DNA from: Methanosphaera sp. ISO3-F5 | Lineage (GTDB): Archaea; Methanobacteriota; Methanobacteria; Methanobacteriales; Methanobacteriaceae | Direction: 5' to 3' | DNA length: 64,000 bases | NCBI RefSeq assembly: GCF_034480035.2 | Contig: NZ_CP118753.2 | Span: forward strand, 124,001-188,000 | Shown here: in pieces, positions 24,227-33,153 of the stretch | How positions within the stretch are numbered: position 1 is the first letter of the stretch | How the letters are laid out: the number at the start of each line of letters is the position of its first letter | The notes under the pieces: model-generated | The model's input: only the letters and a program-made list of their open reading frames with translations | Database searches by the model: none | Told to the model about the DNA's origin: nothing | Program-made: the position numbers and the translations under genes

Positions 24227-26908
24227 ATGGAAAACAACACTAAAAAAACGCACATGCCAAAATGTCATGATGAAAACTGCACTAATCCAGAACATTATGA
24301 TTTCATTTGTCTAGATCCCGACTGTCATGACGATCATTGTGAATTAGAAGAACATTATAATAAAAAAATGCTTCAAAAACTACATAAATTAGAAAATACT
24401 GAAGAACACAATGAATGTTATGATTCAGATTGTCAAGAAGCAATCTGCAAAGATCCCGGACATTATAATTACATATGTATGGATCCAGAATGTCCTGATG
24501 ATCATTGTGAAATTATGGAACATTATGATAAACAATTACTCAAAAACTATCAAGAATCAACAGATTATTCTCAATATGACCACAGGGAAAAAATAGATTT
24601 TGACGAAGATGTGGATATTAAAATATGTAGCTGTGATGATTGTGCAGATGAAAAACATTCTCATGGTTCAGAACATTCTCATGAGGGGGATTCTTGTACT
24701 TGTGGAGGACATGATCATTCTCATGAATCTGATCATTCTCATGATTTAGAACATTCTCATGAGGGGGATTCTTGTACTTGTGGAGGACATGATCATTCTC
24801 ATGAATCTGATCATTCTCATGGTTCAGAACATTCTCATGAGGGGGATTCTTGTACTTGTGGAGGACATGATCATTCTCATGATTCAGAACATTCTCATAA
24901 TGAACATTCTTGTGGATGTGATGATGATTGTTGTGATGATGATATAAAAATATGTAACTGTGATGATTGTTCTGATGACGATGATGATGAAGAACCAGTA
25001 ATAGCTGAAGGAAAACCATTATTAGCAAACAGATCAATTCAAATCATAGTATCAAGTGGAATACTATTTGTACTAGGACACATATTAGAATATTTAAATA
25101 TTATGAACGGAATGCTCGCAACACCAGTATTCATGTTAGGTGCTATAATAGCTGGTTACGAAATAGCATTAATGGGATGGAAAGCAATAACCAAAAGGCA
25201 CACAATTAGTCCTGCAGTTTTAATGACAGTAGCATGTATAGCTTCATTTATAATAGGACATCCAGAAGAAGGAGCTGCAATCACATTTTTATATTATATA
25301 GCAGAATTTTTAGAAGATTATGCTGAGCTAAGAGCACAAAACTCTATAAAATCCCTGGTCGAAATAGCTCCTGAAACAGCAAGAGTAAAAAGAGGGTCCG
25401 ATGAAGAAATTATTAAAGTAGATGATGTGGAAGTAGGTGAAACAGTAATCGTTAAACCTGGAGATAAAATACCTTTAGATGGTAAAGTAAGTTCAGGTAT
25501 ATCTTCAATTAACCAGGCATCAATTACAGGAGAAAGTGTTCCAGTAACGAAAAATGTTGGTGATAAAGTATATTCTGGAACAGTTAATGAGGATGGATAT
25601 CTTGAAATAGAAGTAACTAAAAAATCAAAGGATAGTGTTATTTCAAAAATAGTTACATTAGTAAAACGTTCACAATTAAACAGATCTACAACTGAAACTC
25701 TTGTAGAAAAAATAGCAAAATATTACACACCTGCTATGGTGGTAATTACATTATGTGTAGCATTTATTCCACCAATAATATTGGGAGGAGATATGACAGT
25801 ATTCAAAGAATGGATTTACAGAGCATTATCAATTATGGTAATTTCATGTCCATGTGCATTTTTAATATCCACTCCTATAGGTATGGTATCATCAATCACA
25901 TCTGCAACCAGACAAGGAGTAATAATTAAAGGAAGTACTCACGTAGAAGAAATGAGAAATATCAAGGCAGTAATATTCGATAAAACAGGAACATTAACTG
26001 AGGGTAAATTAGAAGTTGTTGATATAAAAGTATTAGATGAGCATTATAATAAAGAAGAATTAGTACAAATAGCAGCTTCATTAGAAAACAAATCAACTCA
26101 TCCAATCGGATTAGCAATAGTAAATTATGCACAAAAGAATAACATAAAATTACTAAACATATCTCAATTCAAAAACGTTCCAGGTAAAGGTATTGTAGGT
26201 AAATTTGGTGACTATGAGTATTATGCAGCAAATGAAGCCTTGATTGAAGGAAGTAAATTTGAAATTGATCACTCTAAAGTAGTTGAACACTCTTCCAATG
26301 GAGAAACAATAATATTTGTAGGAAATCAACATGATCTCATGGGTATTATCTCTGTCAAAGATAAAATTAGGGATGAATCCAAAGAAGTAATTTCCACTTT
26401 AAATAATGTTGGTATAAAAACAATAATGTTAACTGGGGATAATAAAGAATCTGCACGTAGTGTTGCAAATCAAATAGGAGTACAATATGTCTATGCTAAC
26501 TTAATGCCGGAAGATAAACTAAACATATTGGATATTATAAGAAATAAATTTGGTGATGTGGCAATGGTGGGTGATGGAATTAATGATGCACCCGCATTAG
26601 CCCGGGCAAATGTAGGTATAGCTATGGGTGCTGTTGGATCAGATGTGGCAATTGAAACAGCTGATGTAGCTTTAATGCAAGATGATTTAACTAAATTGCC
26701 TTACTTGTTTAGGTTAAGTAGAAAAACTATGGGAATTATTAAGCAGAATATTATAGTATCAATTTCCGTTAAATTTTTATTTGTAATACTTGCAATATTA
26801 GGTTTAATTACTTTAATGATGGCAGTAGGTATTGGTGATTTAGGATTAACTTTGTTAGTTATATTTAATTCATTTAGGATAGGATTTGTAAAAGATTCCC
26901 TATTTTAA
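24227..26908 (+). CDS. heavy-metal P1B-type ATPase with large His/Cys-rich N-terminus
   Basis: An 893-residue metal-exporting ATPase. The core (from about residue 265) has TGESVPVTK, the metal-binding CPC in SCPCAFLISTP, phosphorylation site DKTGTLTEG, the STHPIG motif and GDGINDAPALARANVGIAMG. The Zn/Cd/Pb class is likely from the CPC motif and His-rich domain. The first 255 or so residues are unusual: two copies of a Cys/His unit (CHDDHCELEEHY and CPDDHCEIMEHY), then CSCDDC, three His-rich repeats, CDDDCC and CNCDDC. No classical HMA ferredoxin-like domain is seen. It is probably a metal sensor or buffer appended to the pump. Confidence 0.92.
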   Translation: MENNTKKTHMPKCHDENCTNPEHYDFICLDPDCHDDHCELEEHYNKKMLQKLHKLENTEEHNECYDSDCQEAICKDPGHYNYICMDPECPDDHCEIMEHYDKQLLKNYQESTDYSQYDHREKIDFDEDVDIKICSCDDCADEKHSHGSEHSHEGDSCTCGGHDHSHESDHSHDLEHSHEGDSCTCGGHDHSHESDHSHGSEHSHEGDSCTCGGHDHSHDSEHSHNEHSCGCDDDCCDDDIKICNCDDCSDDDDDEEPVIAEGKPLLANRSIQIIVSSGILFVLGHILEYLNIMNGMLATPVFMLGAIIAGYEIALMGWKAITKRHTISPAVLMTVACIASFIIGHPEEGAAITFLYYIAEFLEDYAELRAQNSIKSLVEIAPETARVKRGSDEEIIKVDDVEVGETVIVKPGDKIPLDGKVSSGISSINQASITGESVPVTKNVGDKVYSGTVNEDGYLEIEVTKKSKDSVISKIVTLVKRSQLNRSTTETLVEKIAKYYTPAMVVITLCVAFIPPIILGGDMTVFKEWIYRALSIMVISCPCAFLISTPIGMVSSITSATRQGVIIKGSTHVEEMRNIKAVIFDKTGTLTEGKLEVVDIKVLDEHYNKEELVQIAASLENKSTHPIGLAIVNYAQKNNIKLLNISQFKNVPGKGIVGKFGDYEYYAANEALIEGSKFEIDHSKVVEHSSNGETIIFVGNQHDLMGIISVKDKIRDESKEVISTLNNVGIKTIMLTGDNKESARSVANQIGVQYVYANLMPEDKLNILDIIRNKFGDVAMVGDGINDAPALARANVGIAMGAVGSDVAIETADVALMQDDLTKLPYLFRLSRKTMGIIKQNIIVSISVKFLFVILAILGLITLMMAVGIGDLGLTLLVIFNSFRIGFVKDSLF
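24671..24890 (+). repeat. 78-bp in-frame tandem repeat in the P-type ATPase gene
   Basis: A 78-bp (26-codon) unit begins at 24671, 24749 and 24827, the last copy partial. Each copy encodes EHSHEGDSCTCGGHDHSH plus a variable HSH tail. Copies are nearly identical at DNA level, so the number of metal-binding units can probably change by recombination or slippage. Confidence 0.9.
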
Positions 26909-29248: not shown

Positions 29249-29857
29249 TTGATAAAATTGAATAGACGTGAAATGAATCAAAAATCCGAAGAAGATCTTG
29301 CTCATAAAGTACTAAAAGATATAAAAGCACCTTCGGATTTGGGATTGTTGCGATGTGTACAATGTGGATTATGTACTTCTACATGTCCGGCATCAAGACA
29401 TTCCGATTATGATTCAAGAGAAATTATCAAAAGAGTTTTAGACAATGATGAATCAATAATTGAAGATGATATTATTTGGAATTGTTTCTATTGTTACACA
29501 TGTCAAAGTGTATGTCCCGTTGGTAATAGCGTATGTGAAGTAAATCAAATTCTTCGTGAAATGGCAATACAAGAAGACGTAGGTAAAAAGAAAATAGAAT
29601 CTTTCATGAGTTTTGCAGACAGTTATCTTGCAGAAGGATTGGGAATGATTCCTGAAGAATATCATGGACAATTAAAAATAGACTATGGAAAACATTGGGA
29701 AAATCTTCAAGAACAACTTCAAGACGTCAGGGAGGAATTAGGTTTAGAAAGTATGTTTTTATATCCCGATGCAAAAAAATCAGTAGATAAAACATTAGAA
29801 GCTATTGGATTTAAGAAACGTGTAGAACAAATAAAAGATGTAAGAAATAGAAAATAG
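29249..29857 (+). CDS. hdrC: heterodisulfide reductase subunit C
   Basis: A 202-residue iron-sulfur subunit with two ferredoxin-type [4Fe-4S] motifs, CVQCGLCTSTCP and CFYCYTCQSVCP. It passes electrons from HdrA to the HdrB active site, where CoM-S-S-CoB is reduced. The TTG at 29249 lies about 7 bp after AGGTG and is taken as the start; an internal ATG at 29273 (MNQKSEED) is possible. It is first in an hdrC-hdrB-hdrA operon. Confidence 0.9.
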   Translation: MIKLNRREMNQKSEEDLAHKVLKDIKAPSDLGLLRCVQCGLCTSTCPASRHSDYDSREIIKRVLDNDESIIEDDIIWNCFYCYTCQSVCPVGNSVCEVNQILREMAIQEDVGKKKIESFMSFADSYLAEGLGMIPEEYHGQLKIDYGKHWENLQEQLQDVREELGLESMFLYPDAKKSVDKTLEAIGFKKRVEQIKDVRNRK

Positions 29858-29864
29858 GGGTATA

Positions 29865-30854
29865 ATGATGGAAGATATAAAAAAATTCATACCTACAGAA
29901 AATATCACACTATTTAGAAGTTGTCTTGTATCTGCAGAATATCCTGGAATAGAAGCTTCAACTAAATATGTTTTTGATAAGTTAGGAGTGGAATATGTTA
30001 TTGATAGAAATCAGTCATGTTGTACTGGTTTAGGACATTACTATGATATATTTGATGAATTATCCACAACAGCATTAGCTGCAAGAAATTTCAGTTTAGC
30101 AATAAAAAATAATCATAAACAGTATGTGCCAATGTGTGCAACTTGTTATGCCATCTTAAAAACTGCAGCAAAAACATTAAACGAAAAAGATGAAGTAAGA
30201 GAACATATTAACAGGGCATTCCAAGAAAACGGGCTTGAAGAATTTCAATATACTAAAGGAGATATTAATCCAAGTGATGATATTACCCATGTAGTGGATG
30301 TTTTGTATTATTTAAGGGATAAAATACCAGAAAATAAAAAAAGAGATATTTCTGGTTTAAATATAGCAACGCATCATGGTTGTCATTACTGTAAGATACA
30401 TCATGAAGATACATTATGTGGTTATAGAAATCCTGAAGTAATAGATAAAATATGTGAAGTAATGGATGCTCCAACAATAGGATGGTATGATCAGAAACCA
30501 CGCCATTGTGGTGGTGGATTTAGACAAAGATATGCAAATAGGGAATTATCATTAGATGCAACTGTAGATAAATTTGAAAGTTTACACAAAGAAAATGTTG
30601 ATTTGTTATTAGTAATGTGCCCTAATTGTCATTTACAATTTGATCGTTATGAACAAGTATTGGAAGAAAAAACTGGAGATAAACATTATTTTGCTGTATT
30701 GAACATTGCTCAACTAGTTGCATTGTATATGGGTGCAGATCCATATAAGATATTGGGTATCCAAACTCATACAGTAAATGTAGAACCATTACTTGATAAA
30801 TTAGGAATAGATTATGATTCTAGGGAGGATACTTTGCATGTCAGAAACAAATAA
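29865..30854 (+). CDS. hdrB: heterodisulfide reductase subunit B, divergent second CCG domain
   Basis: A 329-residue subunit that normally holds two non-cubane [4Fe-4S] clusters in tandem CCG domains. Domain one is complete: SCL, QSCCTGLG, CATC. In domain two HHGC and CPNC are present, but the central pair, normally Cys-Cys-Gly, reads RHCGGGF, so one cysteine is replaced by His. It starts 7 bp after hdrC and overlaps hdrA by 17 bp. It is a real family member by length and motif order; whether it reduces CoM-S-S-CoB or another disulfide is uncertain. Confidence 0.87.
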   Translation: MMEDIKKFIPTENITLFRSCLVSAEYPGIEASTKYVFDKLGVEYVIDRNQSCCTGLGHYYDIFDELSTTALAARNFSLAIKNNHKQYVPMCATCYAILKTAAKTLNEKDEVREHINRAFQENGLEEFQYTKGDINPSDDITHVVDVLYYLRDKIPENKKRDISGLNIATHHGCHYCKIHHEDTLCGYRNPEVIDKICEVMDAPTIGWYDQKPRHCGGGFRQRYANRELSLDATVDKFESLHKENVDLLLVMCPNCHLQFDRYEQVLEEKTGDKHYFAVLNIAQLVALYMGADPYKILGIQTHTVNVEPLLDKLGIDYDSREDTLHVRNK

Positions 30855-33153
30855 AATAGGAGTATTCTTATGTCACTGTGGTGGTAACATATCTGATAAT
30901 GTAGATTTGAACCAAATTGAAGAAAAATTATCAGAAAATGGGGAAGTAGTCATAATAAAGCATCATGAAAATTTATGTTCTCTTGAAGGAAGAAACATTA
31001 TCAAAGATCAAATTTTACGTCAAGATTTGGATAGGGTAGTTATATCAGCATGTTCTAAGATAACACATGGTGCAACTTTTCAAAAATATATAAAACCTTT
31101 AAATCCATATCTGTTTGAAATGCCAAATGTAAGGGAACAATGTTCATGGGTTACATATAACAAGGAAGAAGCAACAAAAAAGGCATTATCCCTAATTAAT
31201 TCAGGTATTGAATCAGTTAAATTTAACGAACCTCTAAAAAAAATACCGACCAATGTAAAAAAAAGTGTTTTAGTTATTGGTGCAGGTATATCAGGAATAA
31301 CTGCAGCTAATTCTTTAGCAAAACAAGGAATGGAAGTAACATTAATAGAGGAAAGACCTGCAGTTGGAGGAGCAATGATTCAAGTGGGTAAAGTTTTCAC
31401 TCCGGATAAAATGTCTGAAGATTGTGCTGCTTGTCTATTAAATCCGGTAATTGATGAGATGGTTCATAATGAGAATATAACTCTATTAACAAATACGGTT
31501 CTTGAAAAATCAACTAGGAACTCTGGAAATTTTGATGTTCGTTTACGTAAAAAACCGGAATATGTGGATACGGATAAATGTACTAGTTGTGGAAAATGTA
31601 CGTCAATATGTCCAACATTAACTCCTGATGAATGGAATGAAGGTTTAAATCAACGTAAATCAATTTATAAACCATTTCCACAAGCAGTTCCAAGTACATA
31701 TACACTTGATGATAAATCATGCATTAAATGCGGGGCATGTATAGAAGTTTGTCCTACAAACGCAATTAATCTTGATGTTATTGATGAAATTATAGCATTA
31801 ACTGTTGGTTCAGTAGTTATAGCCACAGGACATCAGCGTTTCGATACAAGTAAACGTCCAGAATATGGTCATCCATTCTATGAGGATGTTTTAAGTCAAA
31901 TGCAATTAGCAAGATTAATGGGGGTAAATGGACCTACTAATGGACATCTTAAAGTACCCTCAACAGGTAAAATACCACGAAGAATTGTCATGATTCAATG
32001 TGTAGGTTCAAGAGATCAGATGCCCGGAGGACATAAATATTGTTCTAAAGTATGTTGTATGGTAGCTCTTAAAAATGCTAATTTAATACGTTCTCATTAT
32101 CCAGATACTGAGATAATTATCTGTTATACTGATGTACGAACACCGGGAGTATATGAAAAATATTATAAGTATGTACAGGATAATGGAATACAATTTATCA
32201 GGGGAAGACCTGGTGAAATAGCAAGGGAAGAAGATCATTTGATAGTGCGTATAGAAGATACTCTAACACGTAATAAACAGGAAATACCAACAGATTTGGT
32301 GGTATTATCAGCAGCATTAGAATCATCAGAAGGTACAATAAATGCTGCAAAGACTTTAGGTGTACCCTTGACAGAAGATTATTTTATTAAAGAAAAACAT
32401 CCTAAAATGCAACCAGTATCAACAGATATAGAAGGAATATTTGTTTGTGGAACAGCTCAAGGTCCAAAAGATATCACGGACAGTATAATTCAAGCAAATA
32501 CTGCTGCTACAAAAATATCTGAACTAGTTAATGGTGGATTAGAGGTAGATCCATTTATTGCAACAATCAATGTTAAAAAATGCATTTTATGTGAAAAATG
32601 TATTGATAATTGTCGCTATCAAGCATTAACTCTGGATAATAATTCTATTAGGGTTGGTCCAATATCATGTACTGGTTGTGGTGATTGTATAGTAACATGT
32701 CCTCAAGAGGCTATAACAATACGTGGACAAAGTGATGAAAAATTAGAAGCAAGCATTAAAGGTATATTAAAGGATAAGGATGAAGATGAACAGATAATCA
32801 TAGCATTTTTAGATGATATTGGTAATGTATCTGCAAATAATATGGGTATTAATAGGGTGGATTGTCCACCAAGTATAAGAATTATTAATGTGCCATTTAT
32901 TAATCGTGTTAAATATAGGCATATTAAATATGCTTTAACTCATGGGGCTAGCGGTGTTTTTCTTGGTGAATATCCAGATACTCCAAAACATGATGAAATA
33001 CGTGAAAATATTAATATTATGAAAAGACATTTGGAAGAAGATGGGATTAATCCTGAAAGATTATTAATACACAGCGTATTTATTCCATATTTCCGTGGAT
33101 TAGCGAATCAATTTAAGGAATTTGATGATGAGTTAAGAGTTTTAAGTAATTAA
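30838..33153 (+). CDS. hdrA: heterodisulfide reductase subunit A fused to an MvhD-like tail
   Basis: A 771-residue flavin and iron-sulfur protein. It has CHCGGNIS at the N-terminus, the FAD loop VLVIGAGISGITAA (about 144-157), SEDCAACLLNP, two inserted ferredoxin motifs (CTSCGKCTSICP, CIKCGACIEVCP) and two C-terminal ones (CILCEKCIDNC, CTGCGDCIVTCP). Ordinary HdrA ends about here (near 655). The extra 140 residues (about 629-771) resemble MvhD/FrhD (YALTHGASGVFLGEYPDTPK, LEEDGINPERL) but keep only one cysteine. ATG at 30838 follows GGGAGGAT and lies inside the end of hdrB. Confidence 0.9.
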   Translation: MSETNKIGVFLCHCGGNISDNVDLNQIEEKLSENGEVVIIKHHENLCSLEGRNIIKDQILRQDLDRVVISACSKITHGATFQKYIKPLNPYLFEMPNVREQCSWVTYNKEEATKKALSLINSGIESVKFNEPLKKIPTNVKKSVLVIGAGISGITAANSLAKQGMEVTLIEERPAVGGAMIQVGKVFTPDKMSEDCAACLLNPVIDEMVHNENITLLTNTVLEKSTRNSGNFDVRLRKKPEYVDTDKCTSCGKCTSICPTLTPDEWNEGLNQRKSIYKPFPQAVPSTYTLDDKSCIKCGACIEVCPTNAINLDVIDEIIALTVGSVVIATGHQRFDTSKRPEYGHPFYEDVLSQMQLARLMGVNGPTNGHLKVPSTGKIPRRIVMIQCVGSRDQMPGGHKYCSKVCCMVALKNANLIRSHYPDTEIIICYTDVRTPGVYEKYYKYVQDNGIQFIRGRPGEIAREEDHLIVRIEDTLTRNKQEIPTDLVVLSAALESSEGTINAAKTLGVPLTEDYFIKEKHPKMQPVSTDIEGIFVCGTAQGPKDITDSIIQANTAATKISELVNGGLEVDPFIATINVKKCILCEKCIDNCRYQALTLDNNSIRVGPISCTGCGDCIVTCPQEAITIRGQSDEKLEASIKGILKDKDEDEQIIIAFLDDIGNVSANNMGINRVDCPPSIRIINVPFINRVKYRHIKYALTHGASGVFLGEYPDTPKHDEIRENINIMKRHLEEDGINPERLLIHSVFIPYFRGLANQFKEFDDELRVLSN

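Follow-up and report, generated by a model that had tools for sequence, protein, structure and literature searches.

A Fused HdrA with an MvhD-Derived Tail Lacking Cluster Ligands in Methanosphaera and Other Methanobacteriaceae, with a Probable Role in Coenzyme M Metabolism Suggested by Gene Context

The hdrCBA Operon of Methanosphaera

The window analyzed in this study is a stretch of 64,000 nucleotides from the genome of Methanosphaera sp. ISO3-F5, and it contains a compact operon in which hdrC, hdrB, and hdrA lie in a row, all on the (+) strand. The first gene, hdrC (29249..29857, +), encodes two intact [4Fe-4S] motifs and was recognized by NCBIfam NF041890/NF041779 and by Fer4_8; its start codon is uncertain, with an alternative in-frame ATG at 29273. 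The product of hdrB (29865..30854, +) is of the ferredoxin-type family (NF041780, 498.9 bits against a cut-off of 450) and has an altered second CCG motif. The third gene, hdrA (30838..33153, +), encodes a protein of 771 aa with a fused FlpD/MvhD-like tail. This open reading frame is real: it has an ATG at 30838, a GGAGG sequence lies ~9 bases upstream, and its start overlaps the 3′ end of hdrB. The core of the protein is made up of the N-terminal, FAD, and ferredoxin domains typical of HdrA, and the FlpD/MvhD domain is at the C-terminal end. Alignment showed that the HdrA cluster cysteines are kept across the fusion family.

The operon is flanked by cysS on one side and a helicase-like gene on the other, and hydrogenase genes are absent from the genes adjoining it in the window. 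Both tRNA-Cys and cysS lie upstream, and Methanosphaera was the only genus among the loci compared in which cysS adjoins the operon. Elsewhere in the window (24227–26908) is an ORF that resembles a heavy-metal P-type ATPase and has a long run of His/Cys-rich repeats in its N-terminal part, and in some other genera a related ATPase was observed close to the hdr operon.

An initial annotation of this locus had advised looking for a second, canonical hdr set. Such genes are present, as canonical forms of both HdrA (653 aa) and HdrB are encoded in the same genome, along with two stand-alone FlpD/MvhD proteins. Both stand-alone copies have all of the MvhD cysteines (CxxCC, VMCSGR, and GGCHxGDCHY). 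We also noted that one of the stand-alone MvhD/FlpD genes of this genome is directly behind an ORF resembling an FdhB/FrhB-type F420-dependent subunit, not behind a hydrogenase gene (L002:288-1457 and 1459-1875).

An MvhD-Derived Tail without Cluster Ligands

The initial annotation, made from the sequence alone, had described the protein as an HdrA with an MvhD-like tail (residues 629–771) that retains a single cysteine and has lost its cluster ligands. Our analyses bear out this description. The tail domain (residues 654–769; 32797..33144, +) matched Pfam PF02662 (FlpD) with an E-value of 3.6e-21 and 75.9 bits (threshold 22.3), and the tail alone matched the solved MvhD chain 5odc_D in sequence (E 5.9e-6). 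An AlphaFold model of the tail alone had a pLDDT of 80, and in a Foldseek search with this model the significant matches were all MvhD-type chains (e.g., 5odh_D, E 3.2e-9, TM 0.73); a model of full-length HdrA, made with ten Methanosphaera sequences, had a pLDDT of 42 and was not used. The tail is a descendant of an MvhD-type domain. It has its fold and sequence in common with MvhD/VhuD of the HdrABC-MvhAGD complex but differs in that it is fused to HdrA and is without cluster ligands.

Every MvhD cysteine position is substituted in the tail of the Methanosphaera HdrA. The only cysteine in residues 629–771, Cys676 (32863..32865, +), falls opposite a Tyr in 5odc_D and not opposite a Cys, and the alignment of fusions showed it to be a feature of Methanosphaera, so it cannot be a retained ligand. 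Replacement cluster ligands were also considered and were rejected, as the alignment has no conserved cysteine in the fusion tails.

Spread of the Fusion and of the Cysteine Loss

Our sample of the order consisted of 139 Methanobacteriaceae genomes and 12 genomes from two other families. In a family search, the fusion was found in ~108 of the 139 Methanobacteriaceae genomes, representing 14 genera, whereas all 12 genomes from the other families were without it. Canonical HdrA co-occurs with the fusion in the Methanobacteriaceae genomes. The number of genomes with the fusion led us to reject sequencing error or chance resemblance as its origin. The loss of all of the ligand cysteines could be read as a sign that the tail is a decaying leftover with no role, and yet its presence in so many genera, together with a tail dN/dS of 0.035–0.075 that is similar to that of the core (with dS near saturation), renders this highly improbable. 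The low dN/dS is indicative of strong purifying selection on the tail, and a pseudogene was rejected for the same reason.

The MvhD cysteines were absent from the tails of all of the Methanobacteriaceae fusions that were aligned (50/50). In another archaeal group, fusions were found with full sets of tail cysteines (L115, L118, L122; L113, L114) and with four tail cysteines (L128); the tail from L115 scored 238.5 bits against the HdrA2 profile. These data have two consequences for the earlier suggestion that the cysteine loss would be distinctive. It is not distinctive for this particular protein, as it is common to the family, but it does set the family apart from the HdrA2-type fusions, which keep their cysteines and do not share the loss. 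The loss therefore marks the Methanobacteriaceae family and not fused HdrA proteins generally.

A search of genome contigs produced matches only to Methanosphaera and to two unrelated loci, one of which led to the other archaeal group. A plasmid search for HdrA relatives returned one Ilyobacter HdrA and two weaker partial matches, and no HdrA relatives were found in phages or in viral contigs.

Flavin Site of HdrA

In HdrA, residue E356 positions the flavin lysine K409, and a published proposal uses the pair to tell bifurcating HdrA proteins from others (PMC12054007). In the Methanosphaera HdrA, the E356 position at the bifurcating FAD, which is Glu in canonical HdrA, is occupied by Ala358 (31909..31911, +), and the K409 position (FAD N5) is kept as Lys412 (32071..32073, +). 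The same is true of the family, since 50/50 fusions have Ala or Gly at the former position and Lys at the latter. In a tree of 77 HdrA sequences, the Methanobacteriaceae fusions formed one clade with a support of 100. E356 was kept in all 34 tail-less HdrA proteins of this tree and in 12/12 fusions outside the clade, each of which has at least two tail cysteines. Judged from these residues, the loss of the flavin Glu has probably produced a non-bifurcating HdrA. In the other archaeal group, the fusions at L107–L112 have two tail cysteines only and an intact E356, and appear to be intermediates of cluster loss.

The initial annotation had raised the possibility of a bifurcating complex. Such a complex could resemble HdrA2B2C2, in bifurcating or confurcating mode; F420H2 would then act at the FAD directly, and the tail would do no more than fill the place of MvhD. 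The retention of K409 and of the HdrA cluster cysteines is compatible with this, and HdrA2B2C2 of M. acetivorans does bifurcate with F420H2 (PMC5296606). The HdrA2 of that organism also has an HdrA core and an MvhD-derived tail, as in the Methanosphaera fusion, and its tail is reported to have an Fe2S2 site (PMC5296606). However, HdrA2-like fusions keep both the tail cysteines and E356, both of which are lost in the Methanosphaera fusion and across its family. In addition, the Methanosphaera HdrA scored 748.2 bits against the HdrA2 profile NF040770, far under the cut-off of 1100. The Ala at the E356 position makes bifurcation less probable than the initial annotation suggested, and we regard a bifurcating complex as an unlikely explanation.

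A Remodelled HdrB

Canonical HdrB has five cysteines per non-cubane cluster site. The first of these sites is intact in the HdrB of the window, and the second is changed in two ways. His214-Cys215 (30504..30509, +) corresponds to C193-C194 in HdrB of M. thermolithotrophicus, with only the second cysteine of the pair remaining, and Cys173-x-x-Cys176 (30381..30392, +) includes a gained cysteine, C176, at a position that is Leu or Ile in most canonical HdrB. Both changes are general among the partners of the fused HdrA: C193 of the second-site CC pair was replaced in 55/55 partner HdrB (Thr in 45 and His in 10), and a cysteine three residues past C173 was gained in all 55. The CC pair was present in the 20 other HdrB compared. 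From this alteration of the second non-cubane cluster site, we infer that the substrate may have changed.

One genome has a second, deep-branching HdrA fusion (L070, G139:C4:212435-222789) in addition to an ordinary one. Its tail is also without cysteines, its E356 position is Ala, and the HdrB of this locus has Ser at cysteine positions of the CCG motifs.

Family Profiles and Relationship to HdrA1

The fusion family is already catalogued in NCBIfam (NF041891, NF041780), and the Methanosphaera HdrA itself is an ordinary member of it. All three subunits of the operon had full-length matches, to NF041891 (hdrA_Methbact), NF041780 (HdrB), and NF041890 (HdrC). The Methanosphaera HdrA scored 1185.2 bits against NF041891, below its cut-off of 1300; all Methanosphaera proteins fell just below this value, which was exceeded by relatives from other genera. 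Within the fusion clade, the Methanosphaera HdrA is in a sub-branch of its own.

The HdrB and HdrA profiles group the operon with the ferredoxin:CoB-CoM type, i.e., it is HdrA1-like and not HdrA2-like. We took HdrA1B1C1 of M. acetivorans to be the source of NF041778 and NF041780, and the comparison was by profiles only. That NF041778 represents HdrA1 is supported by M. acetivorans exceeding its cut-off of 1400; the Methanosphaera HdrA matched this profile over its whole length, including the tail, at 795.9 bits, well below that cut-off. The tail alone also matched NF041778 (E 1.3e-12, profile positions 635–767), and this suggests that HdrA1 too probably has a cryptic MvhD-derived tail. Yan and Ferry (2018) stated that HdrA1 has no such tail.

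Genomic Association with Coenzyme M Synthesis Genes

In several genera, the genes are in the operon order comA, MMP16, hdrC, hdrB, hdrA, with overlapping or near-adjacent ORFs, and in several genera this com-hdr cluster faces comE/comD (MMP16 was identified by TIGR03287, and comA, for phosphosulfolactate synthase, by TIGR03849). The hdrCBA genes were within 8 kb of MMP16 in 67 of 106 genomes, from five genera. Across the 139 Methanobacteriaceae genomes, the fusion and MMP16 were both present in 106, the fusion only in two, MMP16 only in six, and neither in 25 (Fisher p 1e-19, uncorrected for kinship or genome incompleteness); for the fusion and ComA the corresponding counts were 106, 2, 11, and 20. 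This co-occurrence must be read with the caveat that linked genes can be co-lost through one deletion. ComA, MMP16, and the fusion were all missing in genomes of >90% completeness from three genera (G012; G022, G023, G027, G033; G063, G104). The published comparison of M. ruminantium M1, which has neither CoM synthesis nor an additional hdrABC, with M. millerae SM9, which has an additional hdrABC (PMC4987999), fits a joint loss of the fusion and CoM synthesis. The Methanosphaera operon is not beside com genes, its MMP16 and comA being ~1.8 Mb away by contig coordinates, and genera g14 and g17, like the other two families sampled, make CoM without the fusion. Overall, the genomic data suggest a role in coenzyme M metabolism; our literature search found no paper linking the fused Hdr operon to CoM synthesis.

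Studies on M. acetivorans provide additional data on hdr genes and CoM. This organism relies on MMP16 as its primary CoM synthase, deletion of MMP16 raises hdrABC transcripts, and under CoM starvation hdrABC rises together with uptake and synthesis genes (PMC12068725). A deletion mutant of hdrA1B1C1 had a reduced CoM content and CoB too low to be measured, and its growth was poor with cysteine as the sole sulfur source (PMC12713407, PMC9963511). These HdrA1 phenotypes would be transferable to the Methanobacteriaceae through the family profiles only.

The same data bear on a different explanation, in which ferredoxin provides the complex with electrons for recycling CoM-S-S-CoB or other disulfides of CoM; the genes would then be linked because they are co-regulated with the supply of CoM, and not because the complex takes part in its synthesis. 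NCBIfam gives the families of this operon the name ferredoxin:CoB-CoM heterodisulfide reductase, and both the starvation response and the altered CoM redox pools of the hdrA1B1C1 mutant are in keeping with such a role. Against this, the remodelled second non-cubane site of HdrB makes an unaltered heterodisulfide substrate less likely, and CoM auxotrophs, in which the operon is missing, should benefit from recycling as well. We consider recycling to be possible but doubtful.

Proposed Role of the Complex

On balance, we lean toward an HdrA1-like complex that works without hydrogenase, and probably without bifurcation, as a reductase in the synthesis of CoM or in its thiol chemistry, with the tail in a docking or structural role. 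This reading draws on sequence comparisons and gene neighborhoods. The link to CoM is suggested by the joining of the operon to comA and MMP16 in several genera and its being missing where CoM synthesis has been lost. As the [2Fe-2S] ligands are missing, electrons from hydrogenase would not enter via MvhD, and the most likely route of entry would be from ferredoxin into the [4Fe-4S] chain of HdrA. With the flavin Glu gone, the FAD is probably a plain relay and not a bifurcating site, and its electrons would pass to HdrC and then to HdrB with its remodelled second cluster site. The MvhD-derived tail would be a former electron path turned structural or docking part; the suggestion in the initial annotation that it is a docking domain is a fair guess. 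As far as could be found, the combination of a lost tail cluster, a lost flavin Glu, a remodelled HdrB, and a tie to CoM has not been described.

The presence of an HdrA-MvhD fusion is not enough to imply a bifurcating complex linked to hydrogenase or F420. A domain-based classification in which the tail is scored as an electron-transfer domain would wrongly assign the enzymes of ~100 methanogens, mostly from gut and rumen. Which sulfur species the last step of CoM synthesis uses, and how many electrons, is an open question (PMC12068725), and the fused Hdr operon is a testable candidate for the supplier of sulfur or electrons to that step. More specifically, and tentatively, the complex may be a dedicated CoM-synthesis reductase that gives ferredoxin electrons to MMP16 or to its sulfur donor, with the tail as the docking face for an MMP16 partner.

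There are two kinds of MMP16, as the hdr-linked protein reads CGTCG and that of Methanosphaera reads CGTSG (L157:6652-7899 and L148:3159-4448), and three genomes of genus g8 have two MMP16 copies. A PRK04334-type protein with no known function recurs near the com-hdr cluster (L148:853-1587; cluster-7 genes in 10 loci).
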